This document shows, one piece after another, positions 44,273 through 54,406 of a DNA stretch of 64,000 nucleotides (position 1 is its first letter; every line of letters begins with the position of its first letter). The stretch is from Maribacter sp. BPC-D8. Its GTDB lineage: Bacteria > Bacteroidota > Bacteroidia > Flavobacteriales > Flavobacteriaceae. The notes beneath the pieces are model-generated. The model worked only from the letters and a program-made list of their open reading frames with translations, searched no databases and was not told where the DNA came from. The translations under genes were made by a program, and so were the position numbers. The stretch spans positions 992,001-1,056,000 of the forward strand of contig NZ_CP128187.1 of NCBI RefSeq assembly GCF_035207705.1, given 5' to 3'.

Positions 44273-46249
44273 ATGAATTATACCGATTTTAAAGTAGCAA
44301 AAGATGTTAAGTTAAAGCTTTATAAATCAATACTTAAACCTCGCATGATAGAGGAGAAAATGTTGATTCTATTACGACAAGGTAAAGTCTCTAAATGGTT
44401 TAGTGGTATTGGTCAAGAGGCAATATCGGTTGGTGTTACCACTGCCTTAAACAACGATGAGTACATATTACCTATGCATAGAAACTTAGGTGTATTTACA
44501 ACAAGAGAGATACCATTGTATAGGTTATTTACGCAATGGCAAGGAAAAGCAAGCGGATTCACCCAAGGTCGCGATCGTAGCTTTCATTTTGGTACACAAG
44601 AGTTTAAGATTGTAGGTATGATATCTCATTTGGGTCCGCAACTAGGTGTTGCAGATGGTATAGCCCTAGCTCATAAATTAAAGAATGAAAAGAAGGTGAC
44701 TGCCGTATTTACTGGAGAAGGAGCCACAAGTGAAGGTGATTTTCATGAGGCTTTGAATGTAGCTTCCGTTTGGAGTTTACCTGTTCTTTTCTGTGTTGAG
44801 AACAATGGTTACGGATTATCAACACCTACTAACGAACAGTTTAAATGTGAAAACATCGCAGATAAGGGAGTTGGCTACGGCATGGAATCTCATATTATTG
44901 ATGGTAATAATATTCTTGAAGTTTATTTTAAAGTAGCTCATTTAGTTAGGGACATGAGAATTAACCCGAGACCGGTCTTGTTAGAATTTAAGACTTTTCG
45001 CATGCGCGGACACGAAGAAGCGAGTGGAACAAAATATGTACCTCAAGAGCTTTTAGATACCTGGGCAGAGAAAGATCCATTAGAAAATTACACTCAATAT
45101 TTATTAGGTGAAAGTATATTATCAGATGAAAGTATAGCAAAGTACAAAGCAGATATTCAATCTGAAATCGACGAACATTTAAAAATCGCGTTTGCAGAAG
45201 AGGCAATTATACCTGATCAAAGTAAAGAATTAAGTGAGGTTTATCAAAAATTTGATTTAAAAGAAGTTGAACCTAGTAAATTTGTAACCAAAATTCGCTT
45301 GGTAGATGCTATATCGGAAGGATTAAGGCAATCGATGAAGAAATTTGACAACCTTGTAATCATGGGTCAAGATGTTGCCGAGTATGGTGGCGTATTTAAG
45401 ATTACAGATGGCTTTGTAAATGATTTCGGTAAAGAGCGTGTACGTAATACACCTATTTGCGAATCGGCAATTGTATCTGCCGCGATGGGCTTATCTATAA
45501 ACGGAATGAAGGCTGTTATGGAAATGCAATTTGCAGATTTTGCAAGTAGTGGCTTTAACCCAATAGTAAATTATTTAGCTAAAAGTTTTTATAGATGGGG
45601 AGAGAATGCAGATGTTGTAATTCGTATGCCTTGCGGTGGCGGAGTATCTGCTGGTCCGTTTCACTCACAGACAAATGAGGCCTGGTTTACTAAAACTCCC
45701 GGTTTAAAAGTAGTGTACCCAGCATTCCCGTATGATGCAAAAGGCTTATTGGCAACTTCGATAGAAGACCCAAATCCGGTGTTATTTTTTGAGCATAAAG
45801 GTTTGTATAGAAGTTTTTACCAAGAAGTACCTGTTGACTATTACACATTGCCTTTAGGGAAAGCATGTCTTTTAAAACAAGGTGATCAAATAACTATTGT
45901 TACTTATGGTGCAGGAGTACATTGGGCTTTAGAAACATTAGAAAAGAATACAGAAATACGTGCAGATCTATTGGATCTACGAACGTTACAGCCACTAGAT
46001 GTCAAAGCAATTTACGATTCGGTAAAGCGAACAGGTAAACTAATTATATTACAAGAAGACAGCCTTTTTGGTGGTATCGCCAGTGATATTTCAGCAATGG
46101 TGATGGAGAATTGTTTTGAGTATTTAGACGGTCCTATAAAAAGGGTGGGTAGTTTAGAGACACCGATTCCTTTTAACACAAAGCTTGAAGAGCAATACCT
46201 GGCAAAGTCTAGGTTTGAATCTGATTTAAAAGAACTTATGGCATATTAA
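44273..46249 (+). CDS. Fused alpha/beta E1 component of a 2-oxoacid dehydrogenase (branched-chain type)
   Basis: 658 residues. The N-terminal ~330 are the E1 alpha part with the ThDP motif GEGATSEGDFHEALN; the C-terminal ~330 are the E1 beta part starting TKIRLVDAISEGLRQSM and containing GQDVAEYGGVFK and KTPGLKVVYP. Separate subunits in most bacteria are fused here. It probably decarboxylates 2-oxoisovalerate-type substrates to make branched-chain acyl-CoA, abundant in flavobacterial lipids. E2 and E3 are not in the window. Confidence 0.92.
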   Translation: MNYTDFKVAKDVKLKLYKSILKPRMIEEKMLILLRQGKVSKWFSGIGQEAISVGVTTALNNDEYILPMHRNLGVFTTREIPLYRLFTQWQGKASGFTQGRDRSFHFGTQEFKIVGMISHLGPQLGVADGIALAHKLKNEKKVTAVFTGEGATSEGDFHEALNVASVWSLPVLFCVENNGYGLSTPTNEQFKCENIADKGVGYGMESHIIDGNNILEVYFKVAHLVRDMRINPRPVLLEFKTFRMRGHEEASGTKYVPQELLDTWAEKDPLENYTQYLLGESILSDESIAKYKADIQSEIDEHLKIAFAEEAIIPDQSKELSEVYQKFDLKEVEPSKFVTKIRLVDAISEGLRQSMKKFDNLVIMGQDVAEYGGVFKITDGFVNDFGKERVRNTPICESAIVSAAMGLSINGMKAVMEMQFADFASSGFNPIVNYLAKSFYRWGENADVVIRMPCGGGVSAGPFHSQTNEAWFTKTPGLKVVYPAFPYDAKGLLATSIEDPNPVLFFEHKGLYRSFYQEVPVDYYTLPLGKACLLKQGDQITIVTYGAGVHWALETLEKNTEIRADLLDLRTLQPLDVKAIYDSVKRTGKLIILQEDSLFGGIASDISAMVMENCFEYLDGPIKRVGSLETPIPFNTKLEEQYLAKSRFESDLKELMAY

Positions 46250-47595: not shown

Positions 47596-47626
47596 GAGAT
47601 ACAAATTTTAGTATTGAGTTAAAATA

Positions 47627-47656
47627 AAAGCCCTGCACTTGCAGGGCTTTTTTGTT
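47627..47656 (+). terminator. Intrinsic terminator after the OmpA gene
   Basis: AAAGCCCTGCA pairs with TGCAGGGCTTT, followed by a T-run. It separates the OmpA unit from the polyketide cluster, whose first start is 21 nt later. Confidence 0.9.
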
Positions 47657-47676: not shown

Positions 47677-48798
47677 GTGAAAGAACACGGCATACTTATT
47701 ATTGGAGGTGGACTAGCTGGTTTGACTGCTGCTATTCATTTGGCTTCGGAAGGATTGGATGTTGCTGTGATTGAAATGCAGCAATACCCGCATCATAAAG
47801 TTTGTGGCGAATATGTATCTAAGGAAATTGATCCGTATTTAAAACGGTTAGGGGTAGACCTAAAGGCTGAAGGGGCTAAAGATATTTCACAATTTAAAAT
47901 AAGTACGGAAGACGGATTTATCGTTGAGACCGATTTGCCATTAGGCGGATTCGGCATAAGTAGGTATGCGCTTGACAATTTACTCTTTGAACGTGCAAAA
48001 GAGCTTGGAGTCGTTTTTTACTTCGAGAAGGTTATAGCAACCGCATTCAAGAATGATGTTTTTACTATTACTACCAAGTCTAATAGCTATTCTTCTAAAA
48101 TTGCCATTGGAGCTTACGGTAAACGATCGGTCTTAGATAAAAATTTAGATAGAGCGTTCAGTAAGAAAAAACAGTCGTGGCTGGCGGTAAAGGCACATTA
48201 TGAACTTGAAGATTTTCAGGAAGACCTAGTGGCGCTACACAATTTTAATGGCGGTTATGGCGGACTTTCAAAAACGGAAACCGGAGTAGTTAATTTTTGT
48301 TATCTCGTTAATTATGAAAGTTTTAAAGAATATAAAGATATTCAAAGTTTCAATAAAGAAGTAGTTGCCGAAAACCCATATCTAAAAGAGTTTTTATCAA
48401 ATGCAAAGCCAATTTTTGAGCAACCTATGACCATAGCCCAAATTGCCTTTGACGAAAAAGATAATGTCGTTGATCATATGCTTATGTGTGGCGATACGGC
48501 AGGTCTAATTCATCCACTTTGTGGTAATGGTATGGCAATGGCTATTCATAGTGCTAAGATTGCATCTGAATTTGTATTGCAATTTTTTAATGAACCAGAT
48601 TACAAACGAGATGAATTGGAAAGGGACTATAAAAAGGCATGGTCAAAAGCTTTTAGTGCTCGTTTATGGTTTGGCAGAAAATTACAGTCCGTATTAATGA
48701 ATAAAAGATTAGTTTCAATGGGAATTAAATCTGTCGGAAAATCAAAAACAATATTGAAGTTTATTATTTCTAAAACCCATGGAGAATTAATATCGTAA
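47677..48798 (+). CDS. FAD-dependent oxidoreductase (geranylgeranyl-reductase/FixC type), type III PKS cluster
   Basis: 373 residues with a Rossmann GGGLAGLTAAIHLASEG near 9-25, a PHHKVCGEYVS substrate loop and the second FAD motif CGDTAGLIHPLCGNGMAMA near 267-285. The start is a GTG. It begins a tightly packed set: the next gene's ATG overlaps its stop. By analogy with the flavoprotein SrsC in the Streptomyces srs phenolic-lipid operon it may oxidise the polyketide product, but it could equally reduce a double bond. Confidence 0.85.
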   Translation: MKEHGILIIGGGLAGLTAAIHLASEGLDVAVIEMQQYPHHKVCGEYVSKEIDPYLKRLGVDLKAEGAKDISQFKISTEDGFIVETDLPLGGFGISRYALDNLLFERAKELGVVFYFEKVIATAFKNDVFTITTKSNSYSSKIAIGAYGKRSVLDKNLDRAFSKKKQSWLAVKAHYELEDFQEDLVALHNFNGGYGGLSKTETGVVNFCYLVNYESFKEYKDIQSFNKEVVAENPYLKEFLSNAKPIFEQPMTIAQIAFDEKDNVVDHMLMCGDTAGLIHPLCGNGMAMAIHSAKIASEFVLQFFNEPDYKRDELERDYKKAWSKAFSARLWFGRKLQSVLMNKRLVSMGIKSVGKSKTILKFIISKTHGELIS

Positions 48799-49505
48799 TG
48801 GTAGATTTTACACAAAGAAGTAGTGAAGTGGAGATCATGGATACCTTTTCGGGTACCACTAATGAGCTAGAAACCATTCTGCAAGACATCAATAGGGTAA
48901 ATAGGTTACTTGGGGGTTATGGTATTACATTAGATGCTGTATTTGAGTTACTTGAAAAAAATAAACAAGAATCGTATACGATTTTAGATATGGGTTGCGC
49001 TGAAGGAACCATGCTTAGAAAGCTGGCGCTAGCGGCTAGAAAGAAGAATATAAAACTCAAATTGATTGGAGTGGACTTTAATGAACAAGGATTGCAATTA
49101 GCAAAACAATATTCATCTGATTACCCTGAGATTAGTTACCTGAATACTGATATTTTAAGAACCGATTTTTCTGAATGGAATGTTGATGTGGTTATGACGA
49201 CATTAACCTTGCATCATTTTACAGATGAAGGTGTAGTGGAGTTTGTAAATCGTTTTGTAGAAATAGCAAAGTTGGGGGTAGTAATTAATGATTTGGAACG
49301 GAGCCCTATTGCATATTATTTGTTCAAAGCATTTAGTTTGTTTTTTATCAAAACTGAAATTGCCAAGAAAGACGGATTATTATCTATCCGCAGGGCATTT
49401 ATAAAGAAAGAATTATTGCGTTTTGCTGATCAAGTTACTAATGCCTCTCATTATATTAAATGGAAATGGGCCTTTAGATATGCATGGGTTTTACAAAAGA
49501 ATTAA
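48798..49505 (+). CDS. SAM-dependent methyltransferase, type III PKS cluster
   Basis: 235 residues, class I fold. Motif I is ILDMGCAEGTMLR near 62-74, acidic LIGVDFNEQG, and TLTLHHFTDE. Start overlaps the preceding stop as TAATG. Candidate O- or C-methylation of the polyketide; SrsB occupies this role in the srs operon. Copy 4 of ATCGTATACGAT is inside. Confidence 0.85.
   Translation: MVDFTQRSSEVEIMDTFSGTTNELETILQDINRVNRLLGGYGITLDAVFELLEKNKQESYTILDMGCAEGTMLRKLALAARKKNIKLKLIGVDFNEQGLQLAKQYSSDYPEISYLNTDILRTDFSEWNVDVVMTTLTLHHFTDEGVVEFVNRFVEIAKLGVVINDLERSPIAYYLFKAFSLFFIKTEIAKKDGLLSIRRAFIKKELLRFADQVTNASHYIKWKWAFRYAWVLQKN
48971..48982. repeat. ATCGTATACGAT palindrome, copy 4
   Basis: Inside the methyltransferase gene, read as TCG TAT ACG ATT, a third codon phase. 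Confidence 0.6.
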
Positions 49506-49529
49506 GTAGATTGAAGATTAAGAGCAACT

Positions 49530-50585
49530 ATGAATCATACAAGAATTGTTAGTGTTACGAAAGAATTACCACCGTATTCAAAAGATACCAAGGATATCAT
49601 TCCCCTTGTTGAATTTTGGTTGAGCGGTCAAGAAGAGCGTTTCTCTAGAAAGGTCGTTAAGATATTTGAAGGTGCTGCGGTAGACAAGCGGTATTCCATC
49701 ATGCCGCCCGAAGATGTGTTTGTGACTACTTCTTTCGAGGATAAGAACAAGATTTATAGTAAAGAAGCCAAACGTATGGGTACGAACGTGCTTAGAAACG
49801 CGCTGCAAAAAAGTAATTGGAATGCATCTTCAATCGATTATATTATTACAGTTAGCTGTACGGGTATTATGATTCCGTCTTTAGATGCGTATTTGATTAA
49901 TGAATTGGGTATGCGTCAAGATGTGGTAAGACTTCCGGTCACTGAAATGGGTTGCGCTGCAGGAGTATCTGGGCTCATATATGCGCATAACTTTTTAAAA
50001 TCAAATCCTGGTAAACGTATAGCTTTGGTTGCTGTTGAGAGTCCCACGGCAACTTTTCAGTTAGAAGATTATTCGATGGCAAATATGGTAAGTGCTGCAA
50101 TTTTTGGAGACGGTGCAGCTTGTGTGCTACTATCGTCAGAAGAAGATGCTGTTGGTCCGAAGATAATAGGGGAAGAAATGTATCACTTTAAAGATGCTAC
50201 CGAAATGATGGGTTTTGATTTAACCAATCACGGATTAAAAATGATTCTTGATCCGGCTGTACCAGAAACGATATCTAATCATTTTGCAGAAATTGTACAT
50301 CCGTTTTTAGAAAAGTATGGTAGTGACATTCAGAATGTAAACCATTTAATATTTCATCCCGGAGGAAAGAAAATAGTACAAACCGTAGAATCGCTATTTG
50401 GTGCACTAGGTAAAAATATAGATGATACCAGAGAGGTGTTACGACTTTATGGAAACATGAGTAGTGCTACTGTTTTATACGTGTTAGAACGTTTTTTAGA
50501 AAAAGATATAGCAACAGGAGAGCAAGGGTTGATACTGAGTTTTGGTCCCGGTTTCTCGGCACAACGCGTATTGATAGAATGGTAG
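49530..50585 (+). CDS. Type III polyketide synthase (chalcone/stilbene synthase family)
   Basis: 351 residues, complete. The Cys-His-Asn triad is Cys142 (TEMGCAAG), His276 (IFHPGG) and Asn309 (LYGNMSS); the GFGPG-like loop is FGPGFSAQ near the end. It condenses an acyl starter with malonyl units to pyrones, resorcinols or phloroglucinols. Neighbouring ACP and fatty-acid-type enzymes suggest an ACP-bound or long-chain acyl starter. The product cannot be read from the sequence. Confidence 0.93.
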   Translation: MNHTRIVSVTKELPPYSKDTKDIIPLVEFWLSGQEERFSRKVVKIFEGAAVDKRYSIMPPEDVFVTTSFEDKNKIYSKEAKRMGTNVLRNALQKSNWNASSIDYIITVSCTGIMIPSLDAYLINELGMRQDVVRLPVTEMGCAAGVSGLIYAHNFLKSNPGKRIALVAVESPTATFQLEDYSMANMVSAAIFGDGAACVLLSSEEDAVGPKIIGEEMYHFKDATEMMGFDLTNHGLKMILDPAVPETISNHFAEIVHPFLEKYGSDIQNVNHLIFHPGGKKIVQTVESLFGALGKNIDDTREVLRLYGNMSSATVLYVLERFLEKDIATGEQGLILSFGPGFSAQRVLIEW

Positions 50586-50603
50586 CTTAAGTAAACGACA
50601 ACT

Positions 50604-51386
50604 ATGAAAAATACCTATTGGGCTTTAATATTGGGAGGAAGTAGCGGACTCGGACTCGCCACCGCTAAGAAATTGGCTAGCCATGGCTACCATATTTTAA
50701 TTATGCACCGAGATCGACGTGCAGCCATGGATGAGATTGAAAAAGGATTCGATGAAATTCGTGCCTTTGGTAATCAATTGATAGCAATGAATGTAGATGT
50801 TTTAAATGCTGAAAAACGAGCAGATATCATTTCTAATATCCAGCAACAGTTACCAGAAGGTCATCAGATTAAGGTAATGGTACATAGTGTAGCAAAAGGA
50901 ACACTTAAGCCCATGTATTCAGAAAGTAGACCAACCTTGGTCGACACCGATTTTAGAATCACTTTCGATGCCATGGCGTTGAGCTTGTACGATTGGACAA
51001 AAGCACTGGTTACGGCAAATTTATTTGCAGACGATACGCGTATAGTTTCATTTACAAGTGAAGGTAATACCAAAGCATTACCAAATTATAGTGCCGTTTC
51101 AGTGGCTAAAGTAGCTTTAGAAGCGCTGACCAGAAGTATTGCGTTAGAATTTGCACCAATCGGTATAAAAGCAAACTGCATACAGGCAGGCATTACGATG
51201 ACCAAATCGTTATCTATGATTCCCGGTTACGAGCAGATTAAAGAAAATGCATTAAAGAGAAATCCGCAGAACCGCTTAACCACTCCTGAAGACGTTGCAA
51301 ATGCGGTGTACTTACTAACAATGGATGAAGCAAGTTGGATTACGGGAACCGTCATAAAAGTTGATGGCGGAGAAAGTTTGATGTAA
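50604..51386 (+). CDS. FabI-like SDR, probable enoyl-ACP reductase of the cluster
   Basis: 260 residues, GGSSGLGLAT cofactor loop. The active site is Tyr162-x6-Lys169 (NYSAVSVAK), the FabI spacing, instead of the YxxxK of ketoreductases, and AGITMTKS fits the FabI substrate loop. It would reduce enoyl-ACP in a local acyl-chain cycle. No dedicated ketoreductase is in the cluster. It starts 18 nt after the polyketide synthase stop. Confidence 0.8.
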   Translation: MKNTYWALILGGSSGLGLATAKKLASHGYHILIMHRDRRAAMDEIEKGFDEIRAFGNQLIAMNVDVLNAEKRADIISNIQQQLPEGHQIKVMVHSVAKGTLKPMYSESRPTLVDTDFRITFDAMALSLYDWTKALVTANLFADDTRIVSFTSEGNTKALPNYSAVSVAKVALEALTRSIALEFAPIGIKANCIQAGITMTKSLSMIPGYEQIKENALKRNPQNRLTTPEDVANAVYLLTMDEASWITGTVIKVDGGESLM

Positions 51387-51394
51387 TAAGAAAG

Positions 51395-51847
51395 ATGATG
51401 AAGGAATCTTATAATTGGATATTGAACCAACTACCGTATTCAGAGCCTTTTCTATTTGTGGAAGAGATATTGAATATTAATGATAAAGGCGCTGAGGGGA
51501 ATTATACGTTTTCATCAGATGCGGATTTTTATAAAGGACACTTCAAGAATAATCCCGTAACACCGGGAGTAATTTTAACAGAATGTTGCGCACAAATTGG
51601 CTTGGTCTGTTTGGGTATTTATTTATTAGGTCAAAACTCCGGACTAGAAAATGTAGGTATCGGTATGAGTAGCTCTCAAATGGAGTTTCTGCAACCCGTA
51701 TTTCCTGGAGAACGGGTCAAGGTAGTTTCTGAATTGGTATATTTTCGATTTCAGAAGCTAAAATGTGAGGTAAAAATGTATAACGAAAATGATAAACTGG
51801 TCTGTAAGGGAGTTTTGGCAGGCATGATAGGTGTAGCAAATGAATAG
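51395..51847 (+). CDS. FabZ-like 3-hydroxyacyl-ACP dehydratase
   Basis: 150 residues, hot-dog fold. Catalytic His49 in YKGHF and Glu63 in LTECCAQ keep the FabZ spacing; PVTPGV is present. It overlaps the downstream synthase start by 8 nt. It likely dehydrates the 3-hydroxyacyl-ACP intermediate. Confidence 0.88.
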   Translation: MMKESYNWILNQLPYSEPFLFVEEILNINDKGAEGNYTFSSDADFYKGHFKNNPVTPGVILTECCAQIGLVCLGIYLLGQNSGLENVGIGMSSSQMEFLQPVFPGERVKVVSELVYFRFQKLKCEVKMYNENDKLVCKGVLAGMIGVANE

Positions 51848-53117
51848 ACGCGTAGTTATTACAGGCTTAGGAGTATGTGCACCAAATGGTGTAGGTTTCA
51901 CCGATTTTACAAATGCGTTGTTAGAGGGTAAAAGCGGAATTCGGCATCAACCAAATCTAGAGAAGCTAGGTTTTGGATGTCAGGTTGCTGGTGAGCCGTT
52001 GGTGAAAGACAATCTCATAGATAATTATTTTACTCCATTAGAACGTAGAGGATTAAATGCTACAGGAATTGTATATGGAGTAATTGCAGGAATAGATGCT
52101 TGGAAAGATGCCGGACTAGAAGAAAACATGACCGATGAACCTAGTTGGGATCGCGGAATCATTTTTGGTACCGGAATTTTAGGAGTCGATAAGTTTAGGG
52201 AAGCTATTCATTTAATAGATGAAGGAAATGTACGTAGACTTGGTAGTACTTCAGTTATTCAGACTATGGCAAGCGGCATAAGTGCCTATTTAGGCGGATT
52301 ATTAGGTTGCGGAAATCAAGTAACTACAAACTCTGCAGCATGTACAACAGGTACAGAAGGTATACTAATGGCGTATGATCGTATTAGTCAAGGTAAGGCA
52401 GAAATCATGTTGACCGGTAGTTGTAGTGATAGTGGTCCGTATGTATGGGGTGGCTTTGATGCTATGCGTATTTTACCAAGAGGCTATAATGACAATCCGA
52501 CGAAAGCAAGTAGACCCATGAGTGCCACTGCAGCAGGATTCATTCCTGGTAGTGGAGCAGGAGCATTGGTATTGGAGTCTTTAGAAAGTGCTCAAAAACG
52601 AGGTGCCCATATTTATGCAGAAGTATTGGGAGGTGAAATTAATAGCGGCGGACAATTAGGAGAAGGATCCATGACTGCACCAAATAGTATTGCGGTACAA
52701 CGTTGCATACGAAATGCAGTGACTAATGCAGGTATTGAAGCTTCGGATATTGATGTCATTAACGGACATTTGACTGCAACTACTAAAGACGGACTAGAAA
52801 TAGAAAATTGGAGTAAAGCGCTGGGGAGAGGACATGACGATTTTCCGTATATCAATTCCTTTAAAGGTTCGGTAGGTCATTGCTTGGCAGCGGCAGGTAG
52901 TATTGAAAGTGTCGCCACGGTATTACAGTTTAAAGAGCAGGTAGTTTTTAAGAATGTTAACTGTGACGATATACATCCTGAGATCTCAAAGCTGATATCT
53001 GACACCTGTATTCCGAGAGAAACAAAAAATCATGCTCCGAAAGTAATCGCAAAAGCAAGTTTCGGATTCGGAGATGTAAATGCTTGTGTTATATTTAAAG
53101 CGTTTTCAAAAGAATAA
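51840..53117 (+). CDS. Beta-ketoacyl-ACP synthase (FabF/KAS II type)
   Basis: 425 residues, complete. Triad Cys168 (NSAACTTG), His310 (NGHLTAT) and His347 (SVGHCLA). The fabF-like KS is expected to elongate ACP-bound acyl chains. It overlaps the dehydratase gene by 8 nt; the ACP follows. Confidence 0.92.
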   Translation: MNRRVVITGLGVCAPNGVGFTDFTNALLEGKSGIRHQPNLEKLGFGCQVAGEPLVKDNLIDNYFTPLERRGLNATGIVYGVIAGIDAWKDAGLEENMTDEPSWDRGIIFGTGILGVDKFREAIHLIDEGNVRRLGSTSVIQTMASGISAYLGGLLGCGNQVTTNSAACTTGTEGILMAYDRISQGKAEIMLTGSCSDSGPYVWGGFDAMRILPRGYNDNPTKASRPMSATAAGFIPGSGAGALVLESLESAQKRGAHIYAEVLGGEINSGGQLGEGSMTAPNSIAVQRCIRNAVTNAGIEASDIDVINGHLTATTKDGLEIENWSKALGRGHDDFPYINSFKGSVGHCLAAAGSIESVATVLQFKEQVVFKNVNCDDIHPEISKLISDTCIPRETKNHAPKVIAKASFGFGDVNACVIFKAFSKE

Positions 53118-53162
53118 TCAAAACTATAATAATACCAAAGAGTATTTTAATTGAACTTATAT

Positions 53163-53417
53163 ATGCTTAAAGAAGAAAAATACGAAAAATTAAAAGATAT
53201 CATTAAAATCTATCTTCCCGAAGACGTAGCGGTTACTGATATTAAGCAAGATAGTCACTTCATGAATAATCTAAATATAAATTCTGCAAATCTTGTAGAT
53301 ATTGTATTAGACGTAGAAGACGCTTTCGACATTCGCTTAGAAAATGATGATATGGATCAGATGCAAACAGTCAATGATGCCATGGCGATTATCGACGCCA
53401 AGCTAGCAGAAAAGTAA
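53163..53417 (+). CDS. Acyl carrier protein of the polyketide cluster
   Basis: 84 residues from the ATG at 53163 (an in-frame TTG is 12 nt upstream). The phosphopantetheine Ser is Ser41 in NINSANLVDI; canonical DSL is NSA here. Helices II and III follow (VLDVEDAF, MQTVNDAMAII). It is the last gene of the cluster and presumably carries the acyl intermediate. Confidence 0.85.
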   Translation: MLKEEKYEKLKDIIKIYLPEDVAVTDIKQDSHFMNNLNINSANLVDIVLDVEDAFDIRLENDDMDQMQTVNDAMAIIDAKLAEK

Positions 53418-53441: not shown

Positions 53442-54380
53442 CTATTCTTTATCCTTAATTAGCATTGACGCTAAAATTCCCGATACCAATGCCACTGAAA
53501 TAACAGTCAGCGATACCCATTCAGGTAAATGTATGTAATGGGAGAATAACATCTTTAGTCCTACAAAAGCAAGAATAACGACCAAGCTGTAATTGATGTA
53601 CTTAAATTTCTCTAGCATTCTAGAGATTAAAAAGTACATAGAACGCAAACCTAAAATAGCCAAGATATTCGAAGTAAAGACAATAAACGGATCAGCTGTA
53701 ATTGCCAGGATTGCTGGTATACTATCTAAAGCGAAAAGAATATCGGTAAGTTCGATAACAATAAGTGCTACAAATAGGGGAGTAGCAGCATTGAGACCCA
53801 TTCTCTTTACAAAAAAATCATGACCGTGCATGGTAGAAGTTACCGGGTATATTTTTTTGATTTGTTTAAATACGAAAGAGTTCTTAGGATCAAAGTCATC
53901 GTCATCACCTTTTAACATGTTAAATGCAGTGTATAGTAAGAATACGCCAAACACATAAATGATCCATTCAAATTTGGTGATTAGGGCAACTCCGAAAAAT
54001 ATCATCAATGCTCTAAATACAATTGCACCAAGAATACCCCAAAACAATACACGATGTTGATATAAAGGCGGAATCTTAAATGATGAGAATATAACGGCAA
54101 TTACAAAAACGTTGTCTACACTTAATGAAAGTTCAATAAGATAGCCGGTAATATATTTTAATACGGCATCATTGGGTGTTAGACCAGTTGGGTTGGCAAT
54201 TATTTCTGCACTGAATAACCAATAGATAACGCCGCTAAAGGCAAATGCAACGGTTACAAAGATAGCCGTCCAGATTCCTGCTTCTTTAGATTTGATTACA
54301 TGTTCATCTTTATGAAAAACACCTAAATCTAATGCAAGAAATATAAGTACGAAGGCAATAAAAATAATCCAGACTATCAT
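53442..54380 (-). CDS. TerC-family integral membrane protein
   Basis: 312 residues from the ATG at 54380. Several membrane helices with the TerC signature SLSVDNVFVIAVIF and VIELTDILFALDSIPAIL. The family takes part in metal (manganese) handling or tellurite resistance elsewhere. TACCTTTG on the reverse strand at 54406-54399 supports this start over an upstream TTG. Confidence 0.92.
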   Translation of the reverse strand: MIVWIIFIAFVLIFLALDLGVFHKDEHVIKSKEAGIWTAIFVTVAFAFSGVIYWLFSAEIIANPTGLTPNDAVLKYITGYLIELSLSVDNVFVIAVIFSSFKIPPLYQHRVLFWGILGAIVFRALMIFFGVALITKFEWIIYVFGVFLLYTAFNMLKGDDDDFDPKNSFVFKQIKKIYPVTSTMHGHDFFVKRMGLNAATPLFVALIVIELTDILFALDSIPAILAITADPFIVFTSNILAILGLRSMYFLISRMLEKFKYINYSLVVILAFVGLKMLFSHYIHLPEWVSLTVISVALVSGILASMLIKDKE

Positions 54381-54398
54381 ATAGAATTTTTCAAGATG

Positions 54399-54406
54399 CA
54401 AAGGTA
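54399..54406 (-). promoter_or_regulatory. -7 element of the terC promoter
   Basis: TACCTTTG on the reverse strand, an exact TAnnTTTG match, 18 nt before the terC ATG; TTG is 23 nt further upstream. Confidence 0.55.

Follow-up and report, generated by a model that had tools for sequence, protein, structure and literature searches.

Seven open reading frames, all on the plus strand, were confirmed by an ORF check at positions 47677–53417 of the window, the 64,000-nucleotide stretch of the Maribacter sp. BPC-D8 genome that was analysed, and each of the seven encoded proteins gave a Pfam match above cut-off (Table 1). The FAD oxidoreductase and MT genes share one base (TAATG) and the DH and KS genes overlap by 8 bases, so that both junctions are coupled; the remaining intergenic gaps are 8–33 bases. 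A preliminary description of this DNA had reported genes packed on one strand, with coupled starts at two junctions, between a terminator and terC, and the window bears out each of these points. Promoter-like sites were not enriched in the promoter scan (26 versus 27.3 in shuffles). The seven genes are a real, single unit, referred to here as the cassette.

Table 1. Features of the cassette and its borders in the window.
Feature	Position	Strand	Evidence
Intrinsic terminator, boundary between an OmpA-family gene and the cassette	47626..47651	+	11-pair stem, 6 G-C pairs, T tail
FAD-dependent oxidoreductase, PHBH/GG-reductase superfamily	47677..48798	+	GTG start; PF01494, 43.4 bits
Class I SAM-dependent methyltransferase (MT)	48798..49505	+	PF13649, 48.1 bits
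Type III polyketide synthase (PKS)	49530..50585	+	PF02797, 80 bits; PF00195, 77.5 bits (cut-off 27)
Predicted FabL-type enoyl-ACP reductase (SDR)	50604..51386	+	PF13561, 153 bits; Y162-x6-K169
FabZ-like hot-dog dehydratase (DH)	51395..51847	+	PF07977, 49.6 bits; H49, E63
FabF-like (KAS II-like) ketosynthase (KS)	51840..53117	+	C168-H310-H347
Acyl carrier protein (ACP)	53151..53417	+	PF00550, 24.3 bits (cut-off 20.8)
terC, downstream of the cassette	53442..54401	opposite direction	PF03741

A motif check showed that the catalytic residues of the cassette enzymes in the window are intact. The PKS carries the C142-H276-N309 triad of chalcone synthase-like type III enzymes, which was invariant in 32 of 32 aligned sequences. 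The closest solved folds to its AF2 model (pLDDT 84) are Pks11, CylI and THNS, and its C110 lies in an SCTG motif that aligns with the SCTG of THNS. The best NCBIfam model was DpgA, at 189 bits and under its cut-off of 425. The MT scored 133 bits against NF004851 (cut-off 243) and the FAD oxidoreductase 121 bits against TIGR02032 (cut-off 158.8), both below threshold. The AF2 model of the latter has a pLDDT of 90, and its motifs G.G.AG and KVCGE are present in 92 and 94 of 95 loci, respectively. Flavin halogenases, of which a WxWxI motif is the hallmark, ranked at the top in Foldseek, with hydroxylases lower; despite the similar folds we rejected a halogenase, because the motif was found in 0 of 95 loci. 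The enzyme is probably a ring hydroxylase or oxidase. The DH scored 63 and 59 bits against FabZ models, under both cut-offs, and also matched the 4HBT family PF03061 (24.2 bits, cut-off 20.6). The KS scored 276 bits against TIGR03150 (cut-off 494), and its best paralogue in the same genome is 36% identical. The ACP has INSA instead of DSL, with S45 numbered from TTG; INSA occurs in 76 and DSL in 2 of 79 family members. The TTG at 53151 is merely the earliest start, and the ATG at 53163 is likelier.

Broken synteny in close relatives would have counted against the preliminary description, but the genes stay together. Of 80 related loci, 63 show the same order and strand for all seven; contig ends cut 7 others, and in the remaining 10 only the SDR, between PKS and DH, is absent, so that the SDR alone varies. 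Among 22 divergent loci (PKS identity 59–73%), all have the FAD, MT, PKS, DH, KS and ACP genes and 18 the SDR. One locus (L238, in G175) yielded no DH, and its FAD gene is split in two, showing that the gene set can be broken. In two Maribacter genomes without the cassette, the site is empty. Seven of the 102 loci, all under 13 kb, were excluded from clustering, family HMMs, motif counts and the PPTase and SDR tallies.

A close PKS relative (at least 59% identity) was found in 142 of 397 Flavobacteriaceae genomes. The KS was present in 140 of these 142 and in 0 of the 255 others, with relatedness uncorrected, and the key cassette enzymes occur together in about one third of the sampled genomes. 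Culturable carriers include Maribacter, Zobellia and Cellulophaga. The PKS and KS searches each covered 397 family genomes, the sameness of the two sets resting on shared handles, and G130, with a PKS of 33% identity, was excluded from the count. The two genomes with PKS and no KS at the 1e-110 E-value cut (G195 and G349) are assemblies of 130 and 190 contigs. KS and PKS are also kept when unlinked: they lie 356 kb apart in G247 and on different contigs in G385 and G201. They are on separate contigs in G124 as well, and in G333, where the contig stops about 2.6 kb from the PKS. The split genomes reveal two modules, FAD-MT-PKS-SDR and DH-KS-ACP(-PPTase); L202 and L204, where no strong anchor and only the PKS were seen, were excluded from this comparison. 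The synteny and the co-occurrence support the earlier proposal that the fatty-acid-type genes belong with the PKS. The conserved order and strand, the KS-PKS co-occurrence and the clean absence from two congeners indicate a cassette beyond chance, and on the last two of these grounds we rejected a chance neighbourhood.

The SDR is the gene most often missing, being absent from 14 of 95 loci; Arenibacter is among the carriers without it, whereas Maribacter spongiicola has it. All nine of the SDR-lacking genomes tested hold only generic SDRs of at most 35% identity, which rejects relocation of the gene elsewhere. Where the modules are split, it remained on the PKS side in all four genomes inspected (L219, L221, L223 and L231). 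Its Y162/K169 pair has the Y-x6-K spacing of the FabI/FabL catalytic pair, and the motif Y.A...AK is found in 80 of 82 members. Among solved structures its best match was 3oic (103.1 bits, the next scoring 78.7), an enoyl-ACP reductase that we take to be B. subtilis FabL; the FabL model NF005975 gave 166 bits, under its cut-off of 328. Judged by sequence, the SDR belongs with the FabL-type enoyl reductases. The preliminary description had noted the lack of a ketoreductase, which Pfam and NCBIfam searches of the seven proteins confirmed, and had suggested that the SDR might fill this role. The latter is unlikely, and we rejected it on the basis of the Y162-x6-K169 pair, the match to 3oic and the 14 loci without the gene.

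A PPTase gene follows the ACP gene in 20 of 95 loci. The two genes overlap in 14 of 17 measured pairs when the most upstream starts are used; the measured pairs leave out L115, L173 and L188, which gave no gap value. The Maribacter cassette has no PPTase among its genes. A PPTase query, run without a positive control, found no match in 8 genomes, and G000 has two PF01648 proteins outside the cassette. At L229 an MMPL-type exporter gene follows the PPTase, an arrangement confirmed at that locus only. In other loci a small gene without a Pfam match (cluster 18) often lies 3′ of the ACP gene.

In a PKS tree that used 16 of the 95 family members and has several long branches, the cassette family groups with THNS, Pks11 and CylI, whereas four PKSs from MT+FAD+PKS triads group with PKS18, EsPKS1 and Steely1. 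The split is supported at 100/99, and membership of the cassette PKS in the triad lineage was therefore rejected. Family HMMs identified these homologous MT and FAD genes beside a PKS at L205 (FAD weak, 30 bits), L206, L243 and L244. Triads without KS, DH or ACP matches are those of L205 and L206 (Bacteroidota) and of Mesorhizobium and Psychrobacter plasmids; in Psychrobacter the MT and FAD genes run in the opposite direction to the PKS gene. The idea that plasmids carry relatives of the cassette was rejected, as no KS matched at E 1e-60 and PKS identity was at most 35.3% among the 30 rows listed of 223 plasmid records. Of two plasmids inspected, that of Rhizobium had only the PKS and that of Streptomyces the PKS and a FAD match of 63 bits, neither with KS, DH or ACP. 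FAD homologues of Bernardetia and Hymenobacter had no PKS among their listed neighbours. In gene trees of 20 loci (12 for PPT), L187 and L188, from outside the family, cluster together for FAD, MT, PKS, KS and PPT and adjoin L185 in the FAD, PKS and KS trees (SH-aLRT 83–88, under the 95 mark).

The preliminary description also drew a parallel with the Streptomyces srs genes. In Streptomyces griseus, srsABC encodes a PKS, a methyltransferase and a flavoprotein and, to our knowledge, contains no fatty-acid genes. Compared by description, the parallel holds by gene role at most, since the cassette MT is class I and SrsB is ICMT-like. PKS-ICMT pairs of other Bacteroidota (L190 and L193), which resemble BpsA-BpsB, fall on the same side of the PKS tree as the cassette; their methyltransferase is of the ICMT type, and family HMMs matched no MT, FAD, KS, DH or ACP there. 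Aryl polyene and flexirubin clusters contain a KR, an AMP-ligase and several KS/CLF, whereas the seven genes include one KS and no KR or ligase. CylI, of cylindrocyclophane biosynthesis, is the next solved fold after Pks11 for the cassette PKS, at about 25% identity. The cyl cluster includes a type I PKS, and its remainder is missing from the cassette. CylI accepts both CoA- and ACP-bound substrates (PMC8086630).

The picocyanobacterial hierridin genes hidABC and planctomycete MT-oxidoreductase-PKS operons, likened here, as was Srs, by description, also bring together a type III PKS, a methyltransferase and a FAD oxidoreductase; the portions of the reports cited describe no dedicated KS, DH, ACP or enoyl reductase, which the cassette has (PMC8086630, PMC10896814). 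For HidC, a C14 acyl-ACP has been proposed as the starter (PMC8086630, PMC10896814). In Azotobacter ars, a co-encoded fatty-acid synthase makes the chain for a type III PKS (Miyanaga 2008, cited in PMC3098273). There, FAS/PKS megasynthase genes flank two type III PKS genes, whereas the cassette has discrete proteins, none of them multidomain, and one PKS (PMC3098273).

We propose, with a probability of about 0.6, that the cassette is self-contained and makes a tailored polyketide lipid, a scheme in which local acyl-ACP primes the PKS and the MT and FAD enzymes decorate the ring. We infer a route in which a PPTase, co-encoded in many relatives and presumably borrowed from elsewhere in Maribacter, would make the local ACP holo; the KS would extend and the DH dehydrate the chain on it, housekeeping FabG would supply ketoreduction, and the FabL-type SDR, where present, would saturate the 2-enoyl chain. 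The acyl-ACP would then prime the PKS, which may add malonyl units and cyclise the product into a head group, phenolic (resorcinol) or pyrone, for decoration by the MT and flavoenzyme. The product would probably be a modified phenolic lipid. This reading draws on the synteny, the KS-PKS co-occurrence including unlinked cases, the PPTase after ACP and the intact catalytic residues, as well as the Pks11/CylI folds, the ACP substrates of CylI, the L187/L188 grouping and the L229 exporter. Against it count the missing ketoreductase, the dispensable enoyl reductase, the incomplete L238, DpgA as best model, the lack of a PPTase in the Maribacter cassette and the exporter at a single locus.

DpgA and THNS need nothing but malonyl units to build their rings, and one alternative is that the cassette PKS likewise makes a small malonyl-CoA-only head (phloroglucinol-, DHPA- or THN-like), to which an acyl or enoyl group from KS, DH and ACP is joined later. 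The DpgA match, the shared SCTG, the side of the PKS tree and the separability of the two modules are consistent with this; however, the seven genes encode no acyltransferase or joining enzyme (the cluster 18 gene of other loci has no Pfam match), and direct supply accounts for the strict KS-PKS co-occurrence at least as simply. We consider such a head unlikely.

It is quite unlikely that KS, DH and ACP draw on housekeeping FabG to produce a conjugated polyene or a single 2-enoyl starter by aryl-polyene logic, leaving the SDR as a late, PKS-side tailoring reductase. The DH-KS-ACP(-PPTase) module does lack an enoyl reductase, and the frequent loss of the SDR and its place in the split genomes would fit, but the seven genes, with their single KS, lack a chain-length factor, a KR and an AMP-ligase, and a housekeeping enoyl reductase could act on the cassette ACP too. 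An ordinary phenolic-lipid triad that draws on free fatty acyl-CoA, beside fatty-acid genes unrelated in purpose, would resemble the triads without KS, DH or ACP and the planctomycete PKSs that, when expressed in C. glutamicum, were proposed to use acyl-CoA (PMC10896814). It is very improbable, given that all 140 genomes with the cassette KS have the PKS and that the pair is kept even when unlinked.

We suggest tentatively, at somewhat under even odds, that about one third of the sampled Flavobacteriaceae carry a further, separately assembled weld of fatty-acid synthesis and a type III PKS. In it, a KS-DH-ACP(-PPTase) module, discrete and with an INSA ACP of its own kind, would be joined to a Pks11/CylI/THNS-branch PKS whose MT+FAD pair is found otherwise beside PKSs of a different lineage. 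With the SDR the chain would be alkyl and without it 2-alkenyl, and the resulting marine phenolic lipids would be widespread but so far unrecognised. As a class, flavobacterial type III PKS clusters are already known, and they rank among the more frequently predicted clusters of Flavobacteriaceae, at 10.74% (PMC10734526) or 9% (PMC7440613) of clusters; the cassette architecture adds a new variant, and no product for it was found among the literature matches listed. A PKS match at E ≤1e-40 was present in 143 family genomes, 142 of which have the cassette-type PKS, and one two-module cassette may therefore underlie many type III predictions. The empty site in two congeners and the natural SDR-minus versions make the cassette directly testable.

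The seven-gene cassette is a discrete unit, real and widespread. In the 4.78-Mb single-contig genome that contains the window, open reading frames and domain matches bore out the gene set named in the preliminary description, and its two coupled junctions, the terminator on the 5′ side and terC on the 3′ side were also as described there; terC runs in the opposite direction. A strong match to the type III polyketide synthase (PKS) was found in 34 of the 36 genomes of the genus, its own included. The cassette is cleanly missing from the two exceptions, G002 (L248) and G024 (L249), where an OmpA-family gene adjoins terC at the expected site. Because these two genes are contiguous there, the cassette has sharp ends near window positions 47677 and 53417. 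A gene for a fused E1 2-oxoacid dehydrogenase (PF00676, PF02779 and PF02780), which looks to us like the branched-chain type, lies upstream, as it does in 51 of the 57 loci having OmpA and TerC nearby. We rejected it as a cassette member since the same gene is present in both empty-site genomes.

For comparison we took the genome loci of the best 80 of 162 PKS matches, which are 75-98% identical; the closest named relative among them was the PKS of Maribacter spongiicola DSM 25233 (98%). All seven genes were ordered on one strand in 63 of these 80 loci, the SDR gene was gone from between PKS and DH in 10, and contig ends cut 7 (five without ACP, two without DH, KS and ACP). At 22 further, divergent loci (PKS 59-73% identical) the six non-SDR genes were found in every case and the SDR gene in 18. 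One divergent copy, L238 (G175), has the FAD gene as two ORFs and no DH detected between SDR and KS, which may reflect either decay or an assembly error. None of the 18 loci with PKS identity below 36% had DH, KS or ACP matches. Single lineages carry extra ORFs next to the SDR position (L228, L229, L226 and L175, the last MepB-like by Pfam and at an SDR-less junction), as if this junction tolerated insertion. Cluster 18, a short ORF (about 144 aa) with no Pfam match and absent from the window, occurs in 37 of 95 loci, often directly 3′ of ACP in other genera.

Coordinates and residues of the features discussed
Feature	Source	Coordinates	Residues
Fused E1 gene	window	44273-46249	
PKS	window		active site C142, H276, N309
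KS	window		active site C168, H310, H347
DH	window		active site H49, E63
SDR	window		Y162-x6-K169
ACP serine	window		S45
Extra ORF, SDR position	L228	10807-11499	
Extra ORF, SDR position	L229	8692-9249	
Extra ORF, SDR position	L226	8255-8842	
Extra ORF, SDR position	L175	8493-9014	
Cluster 18 ORF (example)	L181	6514-6978	
Candidate megasynthase cluster	L209, L217	G000:C1:3176385-3181250	

Type III PKS clusters are common in Flavobacteriaceae according to two reports (PMC10734526, PMC7440613). The PKS (at least 59% identity) was present in 142 of 397 Flavobacteriaceae genomes, one more having a distant PKS (33%). With a threshold of E 1e-110 or better (weakest accepted match 3.1e-140), the KS was found in 140 genomes, none of which lacks the PKS. 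Only G195 and G349 show the PKS with no KS at E 1e-110. This co-occurrence exceeds the hypergeometric expectation by more than 100 orders of magnitude, a figure that ignores kinship among the genomes. PKS and KS start less than 3 kb apart in 125 of the 140. The KS lies 356 kb from the PKS in G247, and G385 and G201 have intact modules on separate contigs, FAD-MT-PKS-SDR versus DH-KS-ACP; G333 shows the same split, but its contig ends roughly 2.6 kb from the PKS. Five of the 140 KS matches (G344, G341, G117, G343 and G133) contain one internal stop, which is probably terminal, given KS ORFs of 404-424 aa in four of these genomes.

The cassette KS is not the housekeeping enzyme, as it shares 36% identity with the next KS of its own genome and scores 276 bits with the FabF model, far under the cut-off of 494. 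The best solved relative of the SDR is the enoyl-ACP reductase 3oic. Nine SDR-lacking genomes were searched for an SDR orthologue and none had one. The gene is therefore truly absent, and the cell would have to rely on another enoyl reductase; in L076 a 30% SDR match lies about 9 kb from the vacant position. The scattered absence of the SDR suggests that it was lost repeatedly.

A DH-KS-ACP(-PPTase) module with an optional enoyl reductase and no ketoreductase fits a scheme in which the acyl chain would be completed on the local ACP, with assistance from the housekeeping FabG, and the finished chain would then pass from the ACP to the PKS. One could envision two alternatives. The PKS might use malonyl units only, the acyl part being made separately, or the chain might be polyenyl or 2-enoyl, with the SDR acting as a late tailoring enzyme. 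The cassette belongs to the fatty-acid-plus-type-III-PKS class, and its particular form is new; no description of it or its product was found among the matches listed from the open-licence PMC literature.

ORF clustering over 95 loci revealed a phosphopantetheinyl transferase (PPTase) gene (PF01648; Pfam shown for L098) 3′ of ACP in 20, of which 12 belong to the divergent loci. The ACP and PPTase genes overlap in 14 of 17 measured pairs. The Maribacter cassette has no PPTase gene after ACP, and its genome encodes two PF01648 proteins elsewhere. An INSA motif, present in 76 of 79 ACP members, may account for the dedicated PPTase. Outside the window, the same genome holds a candidate megasynthase cluster, in which an open frame of 2473 residues contains a KS match and lies about 4 kb from a PF01648 PPTase. 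Sequence signatures identified an accC-like gene in the fetched stretch of eight other loci, five also with rpmF (L229, L230, L231, L233 and L235; accB in four of the five) and three with accC alone or with accB (L173, L178 and L227). In L229, Pfam confirmed fabH and an MMPL-type exporter, the latter 3′ of the PPTase gene.

The fold of the FAD enzyme is PHBH-like; its top structural neighbours are flavin halogenases (at most 20% identity), and hydroxylases rank further down. Despite the similar fold, we rejected a halogenase, W.W.I being missing in all 95 members. Hierridin-type operons offer an analogy that makes hydroxylation its likeliest activity. A planctomycete study left the role of its oxidoreductase unresolved (PMC10896814).

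In a tree of 42 PKS sequences, which includes 16 of the 95 family members, the family forms a single clade (100/100) and shares its side with THNS, Pks11 and CylI; these three are also the first structural matches of the AF2 model (pLDDT 84). The other side holds PKS18, EsPKS1 and Steely1 and, as one group (89/83), the four PKSs from loci with neighbouring MT and FAD genes (L205, L206, L243 and L244). The two sides are separated with 100/99 support, several rows being long and the inner placement on each side unsure. Because the family and these four lie on different sides, the cassette joins a PKS of one branch to an MT-FAD pair otherwise found with the other. Apart from L205 and L206, the tree has 14 rows of PKSs from other Bacteroidota, which fall on the family's side, and a Streptomyces plasmid PKS (L239), with a 63-bit FAD match beside it, groups with Pks11. 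In both loci tested from these other Bacteroidota, L190 and L193, an ICMT methyltransferase lies directly beside a type III PKS, pairs that resemble BpsA-BpsB.

The cassette also occurs outside Flavobacteriaceae, in three genomes of the phylum sample, G527, G578 and G685 (L187-L189); the SDR is missing from G527 and G578. Each of the five gene trees pairs L187 with L188, and those for FAD, PKS and KS put the pair next to L185 (83-88 SH-aLRT). The simplest reading of these trees would be that the cassette was transferred whole, its fatty-acid part included. The placement of L189 is less consistent; in the MT tree it joins L185 and the L187-L188 pair.
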